Positions 14,935 through 22,962 of a DNA stretch of 40,213 nt are shown here, one piece after another (within the stretch, counting starts at the first letter, position 1; every line of letters starts with the position of its first letter). This DNA is from a virus. Under the pieces are notes generated by a model, which made no database searches, had not been told where the DNA came from, and saw only the letters and a program-made list of their open reading frames with translations. Both the position numbers and the translations under genes were made by a program. The DNA lies in IMG/VR virus record IMGVR_UViG_3300036770_007858, positions 1 to 40,213 of that record; one strand, 5' to 3'.

Positions 14935-16776
14935 ATGGCTATTACCCTGCCTACAAATACAATATGTAATACGATTGCTCATAATGTAGCATATAATGCT
15001 AACTATGATATAATATGGTCTTTCGATTATTCATTAAGCGGTAATAACACATCGCAGGGGTCCTTTACTACATTCTTATTTGATGGACTGTCTTCTTTCG
15101 GAGGAGGCGCGCCGGGCGCAGGAGGGGCATATTATAGCGCTGGTCAATATTTATCCGGCAGTAATACATTGATTATACCGTCTGTTTCAGGGGCTATATT
15201 AGGTATTAACTTTGATACCACCGGTCTATTTGCGATAAGCGGCTCTGCCGCGAACGGTCTATTAACCCCTATACCTAAAAGTTTGTCTATTAGGTATGGT
15301 CAAACAGATTTTCAATATCTAACAAGCGTTTCGCTTACATCGCTATATACAGATTTTGATTTACTTTTAAGTGCGCAGGAATATAATAGATTACGGTTTA
15401 GACTGACCGATATAGGCCAAACCCTTAAGATAGATTATAAAGTATCGGATGGTTATACTGAGATATTAACTTTACCTGTAAATCTCAATATAACTGATAA
15501 TACTACATATAAAGTCGGTATCGGCTATACATCGCCGGTAAGTGGCGCGTCTTCTACTCAAGCAATATTCTCGATAAGGGATTTTCACGTTGAAGGTAAA
15601 ACAGAAGTCCCTGAATATGATATTATACAGCCAATAGATAATAGTTTCGCTGTATATCCTGTTTGCGCTTTACCTGGTATTGAGACCCCGGATACCCCTA
15701 CAAACATTAGAACTATTACCCGAATACCTGACGTTCCTTGCCCCATCATAGACGATTCTGAGACAGCTCAAAATATTTGTTTAGCGGATTTTGTTGTTTT
15801 GTCAGGGAGTGATAGCTTTTCAGTGTCTGGAGTGTCTGTCGCTGGATCCTATACCTTCACCCTATCATCTCCGCCGCCGCCCGCCCCGGTATTTGAAAGT
15901 AAGCCGATAATAGAAGCGTGCTCTACAAGTTTTTCAGATATAATATCGTTCGATGGTAATACGAGAGATATTATTGATTTTCCCGTATCATATACAACTA
16001 TTATAGGAGCAAATACCGGTAGAGTCGGGTTTGATTATGCAGTGTATGATCAATCTGTAAGATTTGAAGTAATATACAACGGAAGCCAGGTTATTGATAC
16101 TGGATATACTAATATTAATAGTAGCGCGACATATAATCTTAGAAGCGAACTTGCTCTTAGAGGGCTTACAACATCAAGCGTGACCGCTCTATCAAGTAAT
16201 ATAGTTTATTTTAATAAAACCGCAAGCACCCCGCAGTCTGCTGAGGTTAGAGTATATGGCCCGGTTGATAGCGCGAGATACACCTTTGCGTTGCTATGCC
16301 CTACCCCCGTTCCAGTGATATATAGCTGCGGAAGTCTTATTACGGGAAGAAATTATACTTCCCCGCTTTCAAGTGATTATACATATACCCCTCTAACTAT
16401 AAATATAGGATCAAACATTGGAACTGTAACGGTATTTTATAGTGCCTTTAGTTTGCCTGAGAGATTCCAAGTTATATATAATAATCAAACAGTTCTTGAT
16501 ACCGGGTGGGTAGGCTTATCCACTCAGCAAAATATAAATTGGCTCAACTCCTACCTATTAAGAGTTGGAGAACCTACAGTAGATACGTTGTATCGCGGTA
16601 GTAGCGCAGTAAATATACCTAAGCCTGACGCTAGTATAACAACAATGGAAATCCGCGTCTTCGCGCCACTATATAATAGCACCTGGTCTGTTAGTGCGGG
16701 CTGCCCAGGAGTTCCTTACTCTCCAGCATATATACCCGCATCATTCATTATGGATCATATCGAGACTTTCCCATGA
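14935..16776 (+). CDS. Lectin-like tail protein with two tandem C-terminal repeats (613 aa)
   Basis: The N-terminal 225 residues look like an L-type lectin/jelly roll: TTFLFDG, a Gly-rich loop (GGGAPGAGGA), LGINFDTTG and a closing strand IRDFHVEG. This is followed by a Pro-rich linker around residues 318-326 and two related beta domains at about 347-455 and 483-591. Both read I-G-x-N-x-G-x-V, then RF-x-VIYN, DTG, a Ser-rich turn and EVRV(Y/F)xP, ending in a Cys-Pro. The repeat unit is about 136 residues apart. A host- or glycan-binding virion protein is inferred. The final ATGA overlaps the next start, coupling this gene to the glycosyltransferase-sulfotransferase. Confidence 0.65.
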   Translation: MAITLPTNTICNTIAHNVAYNANYDIIWSFDYSLSGNNTSQGSFTTFLFDGLSSFGGGAPGAGGAYYSAGQYLSGSNTLIIPSVSGAILGINFDTTGLFAISGSAANGLLTPIPKSLSIRYGQTDFQYLTSVSLTSLYTDFDLLLSAQEYNRLRFRLTDIGQTLKIDYKVSDGYTEILTLPVNLNITDNTTYKVGIGYTSPVSGASSTQAIFSIRDFHVEGKTEVPEYDIIQPIDNSFAVYPVCALPGIETPDTPTNIRTITRIPDVPCPIIDDSETAQNICLADFVVLSGSDSFSVSGVSVAGSYTFTLSSPPPPAPVFESKPIIEACSTSFSDIISFDGNTRDIIDFPVSYTTIIGANTGRVGFDYAVYDQSVRFEVIYNGSQVIDTGYTNINSSATYNLRSELALRGLTTSSVTALSSNIVYFNKTASTPQSAEVRVYGPVDSARYTFALLCPTPVPVIYSCGSLITGRNYTSPLSSDYTYTPLTINIGSNIGTVTVFYSAFSLPERFQVIYNNQTVLDTGWVGLSTQQNINWLNSYLLRVGEPTVDTLYRGSSAVNIPKPDASITTMEIRVFAPLYNSTWSVSAGCPGVPYSPAYIPASFIMDHIETFP

Positions 16777-18275
16777 CATATCAAGACAAGCTTGACAAAT
16801 TTACTTTTTTAATACCTATTTTTAATCTTAAAGATGAAAGATTGGAAAATTTTAAATTTGTTCTTTCTAAAATTAAAGAGGTTACAGATAATATACTTGT
16901 CGTTGAGCAGGTAATTAATAAAAAAGAGTGTTCTGAGGCATATGAGTTTACAAAATCTATCGGGGTAGAATACTTATCGGTTAAGATAGATGACAAACAT
17001 ATTCATAAGTCTAAAATTATAAATGTTGGTACGGAAAAAATTAAAACCGAATTTGTGTGGGTAAATGATTCTGATTGCTACTTAAAATTTAAAAAAGTAA
17101 TAGAGCAGCTTGATTTAAGACATAACTTTATACAGCCATACAATGTCGCCAAATATATAGAGAAAGAAGATACTGATAAAATTATAAATAATGAGCCAGT
17201 TAATATAGAATTTAATTATAGTAAGTTACATGAGACGGGGCAACATATAGTACCCGGCACGCTTTATTATGTCGCGATGTATGGCGCTTTATCATTTATA
17301 TGTAGAAAATATGCGTTTAAGAAAATAGGCGCAATGAATGAAAAATATACAGGGTGGGGCTTAGAGGATAATAGCCTATGTATGAGAATGTTTATGTCAG
17401 GGCCGAAATTCGATATTATAAATCAGGCAGGAATTCATCTATATCACCCAAGAGGAAATTACAAAGAAAAATTAGAATGTAGTAGAACTCTTAATAATAT
17501 TAAAGTATATGAGGAAGAATTTGGGGGCATATATACCGATTTGCACCAACACTTAAGAGATTACTACACATCGGCATTTAACGAAAAATTGCTCATCTTA
17601 GGTATAGAGCGAAGCGGTACTAATCTTCTTCTCCATTCTATATGTAAAATAAATATGTTAATCCCCTATGGCGAGCCATTCCATACCAACGGTATTCGCG
17701 ATCGTACATATTTAAACTTTGAGAACTTTAATTTAGATAAATATTTAAAATTTTTTACCGATAAGCATAATTGTTGCATCAAGCATTTAGATACTCAAAG
17801 CGAATGCGCGAGCGTATTTAACATATCTCAAGAAGAGTATAGACTTAAAATAAAAAAAGAATTAATTAAACACTCTGCTAGAGTAATAATTACAACAAGA
17901 TTTAATTTTATTGATTGGTTTATAAGTTTTGTTTTATCATGGACGGAAAATAATTGGCAAAATAAAGAATACCAAACCACATTAAAAGTAAAAATAGAAG
18001 AATTTAATCATTTTTACCAAATATGGTATACATATCATTATATCCACTTACCCGAATCTATTAACATGCTTAAAATGTATAATAAAAAATATAAAACTGT
18101 AGATTATGATAATTTGTGCGATAAAAACGGCAATTTTTTTGATATAGATTTAAATATTACATATAAAGACATTTTTAATAATGCAATTAATCGTAAACAA
18201 AAAATAAAAAACAACTCCCAATATATTAGTAATTATGATGAATTACTGAGTTGGTATAATGAAAAAAATATTTAA
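16773..18275 (+). CDS. Glycosyltransferase fused to a sulfotransferase-like domain (500 aa)
   Basis: N-terminal half: GT-A (GT2/galactosyltransferase-like) with TFLIPIFN at residues 11-18, a DxD metal motif DSD at 99-101 and the acceptor-side motif GWGLEDN at 194-200. C-terminal half, from about 270: a PAPS-dependent sulfotransferase pattern with the 5'-phosphosulfate loop LGIERSGTNLLL at 276-287, GEPF at 300-303 and a 3'-phosphate-type strand VIITTRFN at 371-378 with Ser385 downstream. It would add a sugar and a sulfate to a glycan; the acceptor is unknown. The start overlaps the stop of the lectin-like tail gene (ATGA). The gene looks more AT-rich than the fibre genes before it, which hints at acquisition. 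Domain calls are from motifs; the fusion order is directly visible. Confidence 0.75.
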   Translation: MTYQDKLDKFTFLIPIFNLKDERLENFKFVLSKIKEVTDNILVVEQVINKKECSEAYEFTKSIGVEYLSVKIDDKHIHKSKIINVGTEKIKTEFVWVNDSDCYLKFKKVIEQLDLRHNFIQPYNVAKYIEKEDTDKIINNEPVNIEFNYSKLHETGQHIVPGTLYYVAMYGALSFICRKYAFKKIGAMNEKYTGWGLEDNSLCMRMFMSGPKFDIINQAGIHLYHPRGNYKEKLECSRTLNNIKVYEEEFGGIYTDLHQHLRDYYTSAFNEKLLILGIERSGTNLLLHSICKINMLIPYGEPFHTNGIRDRTYLNFENFNLDKYLKFFTDKHNCCIKHLDTQSECASVFNISQEEYRLKIKKELIKHSARVIITTRFNFIDWFISFVLSWTENNWQNKEYQTTLKVKIEEFNHFYQIWYTYHYIHLPESINMLKMYNKKYKTVDYDNLCDKNGNFFDIDLNITYKDIFNNAINRKQKIKNNSQYISNYDELLSWYNEKNI

Positions 18276-18276
18276 A

Positions 18277-19143
18277 TTAAAGCGAACGACTGCTCTTTAT
18301 TATATTGTAAAATTTTCCTAAAAATATCGGTAATAGAGTATCTATATAATGCTGATCTATATAAAAATTGGTTGCTTTTATCTTTAAATTTTCTGAAGTA
18401 TACAGCTGTATACTTTTAGATAAACAATAATCATATAAAAAATAATGAATACAATGATGAGGTATCCCCTTTTTATTATTAATATGGGTTGATAATTGAA
18501 AATATAGTTTCATCATATCAGGAGGTCCTATAGCGACACCATCCCCGGCCCAATTTAATGATAAATCTTTATTATATTTGTCGCCTCCATATGAAAGATA
18601 ATCTACACATACCCCTTCCTTATTCGTGTATGAATTTAATTGAAATTTAGGGATAGTATATATATAATCTGGGCGTATTCTTAAAACTAAGTCGTAATTA
18701 TCTGGTATTTCTACTAACGAAAATTTATTTATCATCGATAATAAATTAGATTTATTTTGATCGTTTACTATGTTAATATTTATATTTTTAAAATTTAAAT
18801 GAGAAGCCTCAATAGTATTATAGATATATTCCCGATCGATTAATATATTTATCGATTTTTTCATACAATTTGGTATAAAAATTTTATTGGTCGCGATAAA
18901 ATTATTAATTTGTTTGCATTTTTCTCTTATATCTGGGGAAAATGTTCTATTAAATCTGTAGTCATCGGGAGATATATTCCACCCCGGGGCTAATACCCAG
19001 GGAGGATAAATTTCTGCTTGATCATTTACAATTATTTGTATATCAACCTCGTCAAAAGAATCTACTATAGTTCTTAATGATTCCAGCGCAGTTGTCCAGT
19101 TAGGTCTAATTGACCCTACTGTACAAATTAACAATCTACTCAT
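18277..19143 (-). CDS. Probable glycosyltransferase (WavE-like, 288 aa)
   Basis: The start is set at the ATG at 19143, where a late promoter core sits 5 nt upstream; the frame extends 14 codons further but would cross the divergent gene. The N-terminus MSRLLICTVGSIRP and the motif YDLVLRIRPDYIY, followed later by GDGVAIGPPDMM, resemble glycosyltransferases of LPS/capsule synthesis in which R-x-RPD and GD-x-xxIG recur. No TM segment is visible. It converges on the preceding gene with a 1-nt gap and diverges from the cytidylyltransferase, sharing a palindromic promoter with it. The family call is tentative; membership in a sugar cassette is well supported by its neighbours. Confidence 0.55.
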   Translation of the reverse strand: MSRLLICTVGSIRPNWTTALESLRTIVDSFDEVDIQIIVNDQAEIYPPWVLAPGWNISPDDYRFNRTFSPDIREKCKQINNFIATNKIFIPNCMKKSINILIDREYIYNTIEASHLNFKNININIVNDQNKSNLLSMINKFSLVEIPDNYDLVLRIRPDYIYTIPKFQLNSYTNKEGVCVDYLSYGGDKYNKDLSLNWAGDGVAIGPPDMMKLYFQLSTHINNKKGIPHHCIHYFLYDYCLSKSIQLYTSENLKIKATNFYIDQHYIDTLLPIFLGKFYNIIKSSRSL

Positions 19144-19156
19144 AAATATATTTATG
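19141..19156. promoter_or_regulatory. Palindromic bidirectional late promoter
   Basis: CATAAATATATTTATG is a perfect 16-bp palindrome that contains both start codons of the divergent genes. Each strand carries ATAAATA followed by 5 nt and then ATG. Only 10 bp separate the two ATGs, so the two late promoters overlap. Confidence 0.65.
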
Positions 19157-19585
19157 AGTAATATAGTTTTATACACAGGGGGCACATTTGATCTCTTCCA
19201 CTATGGCCATGCTAAATTTCTTAAACAATGTTATGATATTACCCCTAATGTAATAGTATCCTTAAATACAGATGAATTTGTGTTGAAATATAAGTCTTCT
19301 CCTATTTTAAGCTTTGATGAGAGATGGCAATCTCTTGAACAATGTAGGTATGTTTCGCAGATAATTACAAACACAGGCAATGAAGATTCTAAAATAGCTA
19401 TTGAAAGCGTTGCCCCAAATATTATAGCAATAGGGGATGATTGGCTCTGTAAAGATTATTATTCGCAGATGGGATTTAGCAAGACATGGCTCGAAGAAAA
19501 AAACATCGAATTAGTTTATCTACCATATACTAAACATATATCTACAACAAATATAAAACAGAGAATTCTACAAAAATACAAATAA
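19154..19585 (+). CDS. TagD-like cytidylyltransferase (143 aa)
   Basis: Nucleotidyltransferase of the glycerol-3-phosphate cytidylyltransferase family. GTFDLFHYGH at residues 10-19 carries the HxGH active site, GDDW is at 94-97 and ISTTNIKQRI at 129-138 is the family's C-terminal signature. The length is close to that of TagD (about 130 aa), so it is probably a complete single-domain enzyme. It would use CTP and a polyol or alcohol phosphate to form a CDP-activated donor such as CDP-glycerol; the substrate cannot be fixed from the sequence. It is divergent from a glycosyltransferase-like gene and followed by a methyltransferase, so its product probably feeds a glycan modification. Its stop codon TAA is embedded in the next late promoter core. 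Confidence 0.85.
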   Translation: MSNIVLYTGGTFDLFHYGHAKFLKQCYDITPNVIVSLNTDEFVLKYKSSPILSFDERWQSLEQCRYVSQIITNTGNEDSKIAIESVAPNIIAIGDDWLCKDYYSQMGFSKTWLEEKNIELVYLPYTKHISTTNIKQRILQKYK

Positions 19586-19588
19586 ATA
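19583..19588 (+). promoter_or_regulatory. T4-type late promoter core with a longer leader
   Basis: ATAAATA overlapping the stop of the cytidylyltransferase. The predicted start is near 19594, giving a leader of about 55 nt before the ATG at 19649, unlike the other late genes. I see no clear hairpin or Shine-Dalgarno in the leader. Confidence 0.45.
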
Positions 19589-19648
19589 TATACATTGCAT
19601 TAAAACCATATAAAGCGGATTACTCTATCTAATAAACCTTCAAACACA

Positions 19649-20188
19649 ATGAATACAGTAAGATTCAACCCAAAATGGGCCACACATAATTGGGCCCCTG
19701 TGTGTGGTATTCTAAATTTATGTAATAGATTTATTAGAGATAGATTCCCTAATGGTAATCTAAAGATGGTTGAGATTGGATCTTATATAGGAGAAAGCAC
19801 TTGTCTATTTGCTGGTTCTAAATTATTTAATACTATATGGGCTGTAGATAAATGGTCGAATAAAGAAATATATGACATTTTTATAAGTAATACTTCTAGT
19901 ATATATCCGAATATTATTGTGCCTGTAAGAAAAACGTCTTCAGACGCGGTTATTGGTTGGGATAATGGATTGGTGGATATAATTTACATTGATGCATGCC
20001 ATGAATATGATTATGTTATAGATGATATTAACAAATGGTCTAAAATAGTAAAACCGGGTGGTATAATATCGGGACATGACTATAGTGAAAAAGCATGGCC
20101 TGGGGTCTATAAAGCCGTTAATGAGGTTTTCGGGAATCGATCAATTACTGTCTTCTGCGATAGTAGCTGGGCTATTGTATTGGACTAG
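19649..20188 (+). CDS. Class I SAM-dependent methyltransferase (179 aa)
   Basis: Rossmann methyltransferase of the Methyltransf_24/TylF-like type. The SAM-binding glycine loop VEIGSYIGES is at residues 41-50, an acidic end of strand 2 at AVDKW (65-69), motif IV-like IDACHEYDYV at 114-123 and KPGGIISGHDY at 135-145. Relatives act on small molecules and sugars, commonly as O-methyltransferases, rather than on DNA, and no DNA-target domain is present. Its position after the cytidylyltransferase suggests it methylates the same glycan. A non-DNA substrate is inference. The start is the first ATG after a 63-bp gap that holds a late promoter. Confidence 0.8.
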   Translation: MNTVRFNPKWATHNWAPVCGILNLCNRFIRDRFPNGNLKMVEIGSYIGESTCLFAGSKLFNTIWAVDKWSNKEIYDIFISNTSSIYPNIIVPVRKTSSDAVIGWDNGLVDIIYIDACHEYDYVIDDINKWSKIVKPGGIISGHDYSEKAWPGVYKAVNEVFGNRSITVFCDSSWAIVLD

Positions 20189-20193
20189 AAGCA

Positions 20194-20199
20194 TAAATA
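20194..20199 (+). promoter_or_regulatory. T4-type late promoter core
   Basis: ATAAATA, with the core ending 9 nt before the ATG at 20209. This is slightly farther than usual, giving a predicted 3-4 nt leader. Confidence 0.5.
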
Positions 20200-20208
20200 T
20201 ACTATATA

Positions 20209-22962
20209 ATGGACATTACCTTAAGAACAGATATAGCGGGATATTTTAGTTATAAAATATATAGAGAAAATCCTGACAATATCATATATGAATCCCCTAT
20301 CAAGAAAAATCTCATCGTAGATTCTGGTCTCAAGCATCTATATACTTTTTCAGTTCCCGAGGTAATGAGAATTCTGGATATAGGTAACTCAAATATCCCA
20401 GCAGCTCCAGAAGATACAAAACTTAAAGGAGCATCATTTAATAATTCCAGTATATTTAACGACCTATCTGCTCTCTATCTCACTGGGGGGTTTGTATCTG
20501 AAGATTCTACTTCTAGCTATACTGCGTTCTTTAGGACCAAAACTACATCGTCTCCTACTATTCTAAAAGAATTTGTTATTAAGCCGGGACCTAATACGGA
20601 TGCCTTTGCAAGACAGGTTTTTTCTCCCATAACCCTCCAGGCAGGGGACGGTATTGAATTTACATATAATGTTCAAGTACAGCATACCTGCGCATCTTAC
20701 GATACTACTTTGAAATTATTTTATGCCAGAAAAGTTTTAGGGGAATCAGATAATTTTGAAAATGAGCAGTTACCATTAGTATGGACTTCTGTTTCCTCTA
20801 CTATAGACGATAAGTATTGGACTAATATAGAGTCAAACAATACTACAGTAGTTGCTGTAGCGTCAGCGAGTAATGCTCCTAATTCCGCTTTATCAAATAT
20901 AGTTTATTCTACCGATTCTGGTCAAAGTTGGTTATCTGCTACTGCTCCCGCAGACGCGACGTATTCATTAAATAAACCTTTAAATGATGTAGCGTACGGT
21001 AGCATAGTAGATGGGTCGGGAATATCTGTAGATAAATATGTAGCGGTTGGATTAAGTGCTCTTTACACAAGTGACACAGGCACTGTATGGCTTACAGGTA
21101 CTCCCGCTGATAATATAAACTGGACCGGTATTAGTTTTGGCAAGCCCTCAAATTCCCCGTTATTTGTAGCAGTAGCAAACACAGGAACATATAGAGTAAT
21201 GAAATCTTCAGATACTACTAACTGGTCTGTGGTTAGTAGTAGTATAACCAATTCTATTAACTGGTCTGCTATTGAATATGGAGGAAATTATTATGTTGCA
21301 GTTGCTGATTCCGGTACATATAGAATAGCATATTCAACTAATGGAACTACTTGGCTATCCGCTGCAGCTCCCGCTCTAAACGAGTGGTGTGATATAGCAT
21401 ATAGCTTCGAAAAGGACTTGTATGTCGCAGTAAGTAGGAATGCTACATATTCCCCCATTATGTACGCCTCTGGCGGGGACATTACCAAATGGTATCCCGC
21501 TCGCTCGCCATATACCGCATCTTGGCACGGCGTTACATACGGCAATGGGGTATTTGTAGCGGTAGGGGAGAGCGAAATTCAGCCAAGAGCAATATATTCA
21601 AGCGATGGTATAAACTGGTTCCCTTCAACATCTATATCCTTTAATAATGTATGGAAAGCAGCTACTTTTTCAAATAATACCTTTATTTCCGTAGTCTCCA
21701 GCTTGAGCACTGTCGAATACCCATTTGCTCGTGTCGAAGTAGTACCTCGTGAAGGTATTTCATTCGATATAGATGCTCAAATCGCTCTTTTATCAGTTAA
21801 AGATAAGATTTACAATCAAGAAACCTATATGTATACATTAAGGAATTTTGATATGCCCACGACGTGCTCTGTATCTCCTGCTACCGCGGAAGAACTTCTC
21901 TATAGCACAACACTGCCATATAACTCATATGTAAAATCGACTACTAATCTCATATCACCTAATACCGCTGTTAGTATATACAAATTTAATAGCGCTACCG
22001 GCCATGGGTCAATCAAAAACCTACTTATAACTGATACCATATTGCTTTCTGGCTATAATACCCCCGGCTTGTGGGCTATTGAACTAAACGCTGATTCCCA
22101 GTTAGCCGAGCCTATAGTATATACAGGCACCCTTAACGATATAGTACCTCTGTCTCCAACTAATGGCTCTATCACAAGAAGCATTTCTTCTACGATAGGG
22201 GATATTACCGAAAGCGAACTACAATTCAATGTTTATCATACCTGGGGACCAAATAGGCCTATATTGACGAACACTACGTCTAATATAACTATTACAAATA
22301 CAACATCCTCCACTGCTGGCATTGAAACGAGGCCTCATATTGATGCTATTATACCTTCCTGGACAGTTATTGATACAAATAACTATCTAAGTGGATACTA
22401 TAGTAATTATGTTAGTTCGAACGTTGGAATATTTCCTAATTCTTTTGAAGAATTAGGCACTAGTTGTACTGGCTCTCCCTTTACTGTTGAAAATGCTCTT
22501 ATTTTTGAATTAAGGTCGAACAATATACTGGCTGGAATCGGGAAAGATTCAATTGCCGGGGTATATTATTCGCCAAACAGATCAAACTATACATATAGCG
22601 CGGATGCTATTATTAGTGAACTACAAACAGTAAGTAATACAACATCCGCTCAAACAGTTGATATATTTAATACTAACCAAATATCTACAACTCAGTTAAT
22701 TAACGATATTATTGGATCTGCTAGGTCCTATGGGATTCAGGATAATTTTATAGATGATATAGTATTAGCTCAAGTTAACGGCAAAGCAATAATACGGCTT
22801 ATCTTTAACAAGAACTCGAGTATTATTCCTGATTACGTTAACGTCAATACTCAAACTATAGACAATGTTGACAGTTCATGCTTAGATAGTAGCAGTAACT
22901 CCTATTTTGGGCCCGGTCAGTCCGTAGCCACGGCAAGATTTGACGTCATTATACCCGCTTAA
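20209..22962 (+). CDS. Fibre/tail protein with six-blade Asp-box propeller (917 aa)
   Basis: Residues 1-190 form an N-terminal beta domain, presumably for virion attachment. Residues about 200-500 hold six repeats with Asp-box (BNR) turns: YSTDSGQSW near 235, YTSDTGTVW near 287, KSSDTTNW near 333, YSTNGTTW near 374, a degenerate YASGGDITKW near 420 and YSSDGINW near 464. Most are followed or preceded by strands of the type GxxYVAVx. Such propellers occur in sialidases and in non-enzymatic binding proteins; no sialidase catalytic set is recognisable, so binding is more likely. The C-terminal 420 residues are unrecognised and beta-rich. It has its own late promoter and sits just after the sugar cassette. 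The last 4 nt overlap the convergent gene. Confidence 0.7.
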   Translation: MDITLRTDIAGYFSYKIYRENPDNIIYESPIKKNLIVDSGLKHLYTFSVPEVMRILDIGNSNIPAAPEDTKLKGASFNNSSIFNDLSALYLTGGFVSEDSTSSYTAFFRTKTTSSPTILKEFVIKPGPNTDAFARQVFSPITLQAGDGIEFTYNVQVQHTCASYDTTLKLFYARKVLGESDNFENEQLPLVWTSVSSTIDDKYWTNIESNNTTVVAVASASNAPNSALSNIVYSTDSGQSWLSATAPADATYSLNKPLNDVAYGSIVDGSGISVDKYVAVGLSALYTSDTGTVWLTGTPADNINWTGISFGKPSNSPLFVAVANTGTYRVMKSSDTTNWSVVSSSITNSINWSAIEYGGNYYVAVADSGTYRIAYSTNGTTWLSAAAPALNEWCDIAYSFEKDLYVAVSRNATYSPIMYASGGDITKWYPARSPYTASWHGVTYGNGVFVAVGESEIQPRAIYSSDGINWFPSTSISFNNVWKAATFSNNTFISVVSSLSTVEYPFARVEVVPREGISFDIDAQIALLSVKDKIYNQETYMYTLRNFDMPTTCSVSPATAEELLYSTTLPYNSYVKSTTNLISPNTAVSIYKFNSATGHGSIKNLLITDTILLSGYNTPGLWAIELNADSQLAEPIVYTGTLNDIVPLSPTNGSITRSISSTIGDITESELQFNVYHTWGPNRPILTNTTSNITITNTTSSTAGIETRPHIDAIIPSWTVIDTNNYLSGYYSNYVSSNVGIFPNSFEELGTSCTGSPFTVENALIFELRSNNILAGIGKDSIAGVYYSPNRSNYTYSADAIISELQTVSNTTSAQTVDIFNTNQISTTQLINDIIGSARSYGIQDNFIDDIVLAQVNGKAIIRLIFNKNSSIIPDYVNVNTQTIDNVDSSCLDSSSNSYFGPGQSVATARFDVIIPA

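Follow-up and report, generated by a model that had tools for sequence, protein, structure and literature searches.

The gene at positions 16773..18275 (+) of the window, the whole 40,213-nucleotide stretch of DNA analysed here, encodes a phage protein in which a GT-A glycosyltransferase half (residues 1-262) is followed by a half that very probably has a sulfotransferase fold (residues 263-500). On balance we favour a two-domain enzyme that would add a sugar and then sulfate it, encoded in an exchangeable cassette and with a tail or fibre protein as its likeliest acceptor. The single open frame, the glycosyltransferase domain, the overlap with the preceding gene and the exchange of the cassette can be read from the sequence itself. 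The DNA belongs to an uncultured T4-like phage, of which the window represents a 40-kb fragment; the DnaB-like helicase encoded on it shares 30% identity with proteins of cyanophages and of a Methylophilales phage group.

A glycosyltransferase half in an intact open frame

The fusion gene is a single open frame of 500 aa that runs from ATG to TAA. The first-pass annotation had proposed that one protein fuses both halves, and this is borne out by the intact frame, which has no internal stop; the opposite strand beneath the gene carries no long ORF. Positions 4-264 of PHROG 15655 (a 276-position model) align to residues 7-267 of the fusion protein, and the sulfotransferase-like profile alignment begins at residue 266, in a frame identical to that of the glycosyltransferase half. 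Because the two alignments share a frame, the junction between the halves is free of a frameshift. An assembly error uniting two adjacent genes of the metagenome contig would fit the single copy of the gene, which no second contig spans, but such an error is highly unlikely: the two alignments meet in one frame almost without a gap (residues 267 and 266), the junction lacks an ATG with a ribosome-binding site and has only TTG codons (257 and 273), and a base error would need to have erased a stop.

The ATG of the fusion gene shares the bases ATGA (16773-16776) with the TGA stop of the preceding gene, which encodes a 613-aa tail protein (14935..16776, +). Such a start/stop overlap is the usual arrangement in translational coupling. 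The coupling to the tail gene that had been suggested is supported by this overlap and by conserved synteny. The tail protein had also been described as lectin-like, a character that none of the libraries searched confirmed and that we treat as putative.

Residues 1-262 (16773..17558, +) can be assigned as a GT-A glycosyltransferase closest to the inverting GT7/chondroitin-synthase type. This half scores above the cut-offs of the Pfam families Glyco_tranf_2_2 (PF10111; 35.1 bits, cut-off 27.3) and Glyco_transf_7C (PF02709; 33.0 bits, cut-off 23), matches PHROG 15655 over almost its full length (E 6e-11) and has beta-1,4-galactosyltransferase 7 (beta-4-GalT7) as its nearest solved relative in the PDB (E 5e-5). 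The GT-A call had been made from two motifs, the DxD-like DSD (residues 99-101; 17067..17075, +), whose role is assigned by analogy with GT-A enzymes, and the GT7-type GWGLEDN (residues 194-200; 17352..17372, +), which aligns to GWGLEDD of beta-4-GalT7; the Pfam scores and the PDB similarity uphold it. Weak relatives of this half, annotated as galactosyltransferase-related, were found by tblastn in bacterial plasmids and phages.

Evidence for a sulfotransferase in the second half

For the NodH-like domain at residues 263-500 (17559..18272, +), the first-pass annotation had claimed a PAPS sulfotransferase. Co-linear motifs and a profile of NodH and phage sulfotransferase sequences back this claim, and neither a curated family nor a confident structure could be added to them. 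The PAPS-loop and 3'-phosphate-site (RxxxDxxxS) motifs of sulfotransferases are defined in a review that also describes NodH as a GlcNAc-6-O-sulfotransferase recognised via its RXG loop (PMC11625862).

In the fusion protein, LGIERSGTN lies at residues 276-284 and VIITTRFN at 371-378. The 5' PAPS loop RSGTN (280-284), in which R280 provides the conserved Lys/Arg, is followed after 15 residues by GEPF (300-303; the pair spans 17610..17681, +). This spacing is identical in the five NodH proteins and also occurs in several Bacillota Sulfotransfer_3 proteins, and the pattern of RSGxN, 15 residues and GEPF has a single occurrence in the window and none in 100 shuffles. Within GEPF, E301 would be the candidate catalytic base. 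The 3'-phosphate-binding segment VIITTRFNFIDWFIS (17883..17927, +) contains R376, D381 and S385, and a DYDNL motif is co-linear with the other NodH-like marks. The C-terminal mark RKQ...NYDEL is likewise retained, with NYDEL (residues 487-491; 18231..18245, +) matching the NF.EL/NFDEL of the NodH C-terminus.

The 3'-phosphate site reads RxxxxDxxxS and is thus one residue longer than the RxxxDxxxS consensus (R-x8-S for R-x7-S); in an ungapped alignment with L032, a phage sulfotransferase, Phe377 takes the usual Arg position and Arg376 lies nine residues before Ser385. This spacing and the Phe in the place of Arg, together with the strong divergence of the C-terminal half, the lack of a Pfam match or of any relative found, and the GC content of 25.8% in this part of the gene, would suit a degenerate sulfotransferase that has lost PAPS binding and serves the glycosyltransferase as an acceptor-binding module. 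We consider such a loss improbable, as the domain still has its RSGTN loop, GE, Arg376, Ser385 and C-terminal motif, and as the NodH homolog L031 also has an Arg nine residues before the Ser, albeit with a Lys at eight. Overall, the C-terminal half probably retains sulfotransferase activity.

Residues 263-500 have no match in Pfam, NCBIfam, PHROG or the PDB. The sulfotransferase families of Pfam gave none at E values up to 10, a search with Sulfotransfer_3 (PF13469) over the window was empty, and neither the whole protein nor the C-terminal half retrieved a homologue of this half from viral contigs, phages or plasmids. Searches with motif patterns led to two proteins above the Sulfotransfer_3 cut-off. 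The loop DNA pattern found a phage protein, L006, with an identical GIERSGTNLL, and the loop, 15 residues and GEPF found one further protein in viral contigs, L032 (221 aa), in which 14 of 36 residues across the loop and GEPF are identical to the fusion protein (BLASTP). Other candidates were rejected: a genome-contig match (L008) proved to be an antisense chance match, and three DNA-pattern matches (L007, L009, L010) were chance occurrences in unrelated proteins.

A profile was built from five NodH proteins (pSymA NodH and four homologs, all from plasmids) and L032. It recovered the fusion ORF among 417 frames (E 2.2e-6) with an alignment that spans residues 266-492 and reaches NYDEL; besides its member L032, the sole other match under the inclusion threshold was the L006 sulfotransferase frame (E 4e-4). 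The C-terminal half scores 25.1 bits with this profile, against 11.0 in the best of 1,817 shuffles, a joint score that is inflated since L032 was retrieved using the fusion protein's own motif. When the first 48 residues, the stretch that had found L032, are removed, the score is 12.7 against 11.0 for the best shuffle. With a NodH-only profile, independent of L032, it drops to 5.9 bits, below the 10.4 of the best shuffle, and is not significant. Broader profiles scored below their best shuffles: NodH with the sulfotransferase of Synechococcus phage S-SCSM1, which diluted the signal, gave 4.0 bits, and NodH with 11 Bacillota Sulfotransfer_3 proteins and L032, a set that was too diverse, gave 6.6 bits against 8.5. 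The comparison of the C-terminal half with the 11 Bacillota proteins by hhalign scored 31.6, and with NodH added to that set 30.7, against 20.6 in the best of 100 shuffles. As the NodH-only score is weak, the sulfotransferase call relies on the joint profile, the order of the motifs and the hhalign score.

Structure prediction gave no usable evidence on the fold. The AlphaFold model of the full protein without homologs had a pLDDT of 33 and was discarded, and that of residues 263-500 in a three-sequence alignment with two distant phage sulfotransferases reached 38.6, too low to trust; its order of strands and helices is compatible with a P-loop alpha/beta protein. A Foldseek search with the latter model returned a mixture of P-loop/nucleoside kinases and sulfotransferases, and UMP-CMP kinase and deoxyadenosine kinase at the top of the list would point to another P-loop enzyme, of a nucleoside- or nucleotide-kinase-like type. 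We regard a kinase as very unlikely in view of the low pLDDT of the source model, the several sulfotransferases among the viral-library Foldseek matches, the lack of a match to any kinase family of Pfam and the loop itself, which reads GIERSGTN without the lysine of a Walker-A motif (GxxxxGK[ST]).

The tail-locus cassette and the proposed function

The fusion gene lies in a variable cassette (16711..20208) between two conserved tail genes. Two related contigs were located via a 1109-aa structural protein: L002 (88% identity) terminates within the gene for the 613-aa tail protein, and L003/G002 (71%) extends across the cassette site. The upstream tail protein is 69% identical to its G002 ortholog over 590 aa, with homology that stops at residue 592, and the 917-aa product of the conserved downstream tail/fibre gene (20209..22962, +) is 53% identical to its G002 ortholog over its length. 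Between these genes the gene content of G002 is different and comprises a family-2 glycosyltransferase, a sub-threshold capsule-synthesis/polysialyltransferase-like protein and a methyltransferase-like protein. Because the flanks are orthologous and the glycan genes between them differ, we read the interval as a swappable cassette of glycan-modifying genes. The GC content is 28-34% in the cassette genes and 38-40% in the flanking tail genes.

In the window, the cassette further encodes a nucleotidyltransferase (glycerol-3-phosphate cytidylyltransferase/HldE-like; 19154..19585, +) that scores 75 bits with PF01467 and 86 bits with TIGR01518, short of the equivalog cut-off of the latter, and a SAM methyltransferase (19649..20188, +) that scores 57.7 bits with PF13578, over the cut-off. 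Another ORF (18277..19185, -) runs towards the fusion gene and overlaps the beginning of the plus-strand ORF that follows. It has no family match and possibly encodes a glycosyltransferase, as judged by eye from LRIRPD, which resembles a motif (RIRPD) of some glycosyltransferases.

The flanking genes of G002 have features of their own. Its upstream tail protein (L003:20293-22632; L005:1538-3877) extends past residue 592 in a Thr/Ser/Pro-rich, mucin-like stretch that directly precedes the glycosyltransferase genes, is lacking in the tail protein of the window and could plausibly be O-glycosylated. In the downstream fibre gene of G002 (L005:6447-9314), a long poly-Gly insertion is found where the protein of the window is Thr-rich.

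In the mechanism that we favour, the product of the fusion gene would be a cytoplasmic enzyme. Its GT-A domain would use a nucleotide sugar as donor and attach hexose or HexNAc to the acceptor, and its NodH-like P-loop domain would transfer sulfate from host-made PAPS to the newly added or an adjacent sugar, so that the fusion would hold both steps on one acceptor. A gene for PAPS synthesis was not identified among the ORFs of the window, many of which have no assigned function. The sulfotransferase domain is supported by the comparisons above, and we infer the activity, the order of the steps and the substrate. A phage tail or fibre protein would be the likeliest acceptor, because the glycan cassette sits between tail genes; mycobacteriophages are reported to O-glycosylate their virions with enzymes that they encode themselves (PMC11652166). 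Tentatively, this reading can be taken further: the phage would decorate its tail or fibre proteins with sulfated sugars by means of a single-chain glycosyltransferase-sulfotransferase, and the cassette would be one among several surface-glycan cassettes that are exchanged between the conserved tail genes.

The main alternative acceptor is a host surface glycan, and the same enzyme might modify the lipopolysaccharide or capsule of the host during infection, for example in receptor masking against superinfection. Host O-antigen is often altered by phage glycosyltransferases, and the neighbouring nucleotidyltransferase and methyltransferase would also suit envelope-glycan chemistry. NodH, for its part, acts on a glycolipid as its sulfate acceptor (PMC11625862). 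However, the position of the cassette between late tail genes, with its first gene overlapping one of them, suggests late expression together with virion parts, and polyprenol or membrane enzymes were not identified in the cassette; we hold a host target to be less likely, but an alternative to be taken seriously.

If active, the fusion protein would combine the attachment and the sulfation of a sugar in one compact enzyme chain, and might point to sulfated phage virions or to a sulfation of the bacterial surface that is driven by the phage. The swapping of glycan cassettes tied to tail-gene loci would then offer a route to a change in adsorption or to receptor masking.

Comparison with known systems

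The first half shares GWGLEDN with its flanks and the DxD-like DSD with beta-1,4-galactosyltransferase/GT7 and the bacterial galactosyltransferase-related proteins (PF02709, PF10111). Unlike these, the fusion protein is phage-encoded, has low identity to them and carries an extra C-terminal domain. The second half shares with NodH of Sinorhizobium meliloti, a PAPS-dependent enzyme of the Pfam family Sulfotransfer_3, the R-[ST]-G loop, the equally spaced GE, R.N....S, Y..L and the C-terminal N[FY].EL, in a full-length profile alignment. NodH is a single-domain protein that exceeds the Pfam cut-off (46.8 bits), whereas the C-terminal half of the fusion protein goes undetected by Pfam and lies behind a glycosyltransferase.

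Sulfotransferases of phages are represented by gene 53 of Synechococcus phage S-SCSM1, annotated as a cyanophage sulfotransferase, and by L032, but these are stand-alone proteins. L032 has RxGTNLL and GEPF in common with the fusion protein; the S-SCSM1 protein is too distant from it to strengthen a profile. In an unrelated 202-kb viral contig, a 431-aa ORF (L006:3851-5146, -) has a C-terminal part over the Sulfotransfer_3 cut-off and an N-terminal part that looks SAM methyltransferase-like by eye (VGLEWGSGEST), and is possibly another sulfotransferase fusion in a phage.

Searches of 50,697 phage and 72,556 plasmid records retrieved no comparable fusion, and our search of the open-access literature found no report of a phage sulfotransferase or of such a fusion. 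Viral contigs, searched at a sensitivity suited to close relatives and hence giving weak evidence of absence, held no relative that covers both halves. In the glycosylation of mycobacteriophage virions, sugar-transferring enzymes of the phage O-glycosylate capsid or tail proteins (Freeman 2023, cited in PMC11652166); the consulted part of that account mentions neither sulfation nor a glycosyltransferase-sulfotransferase fusion. Phage glycosyltransferases and stand-alone phage sulfotransferases are already known, and what is new here is their fusion.
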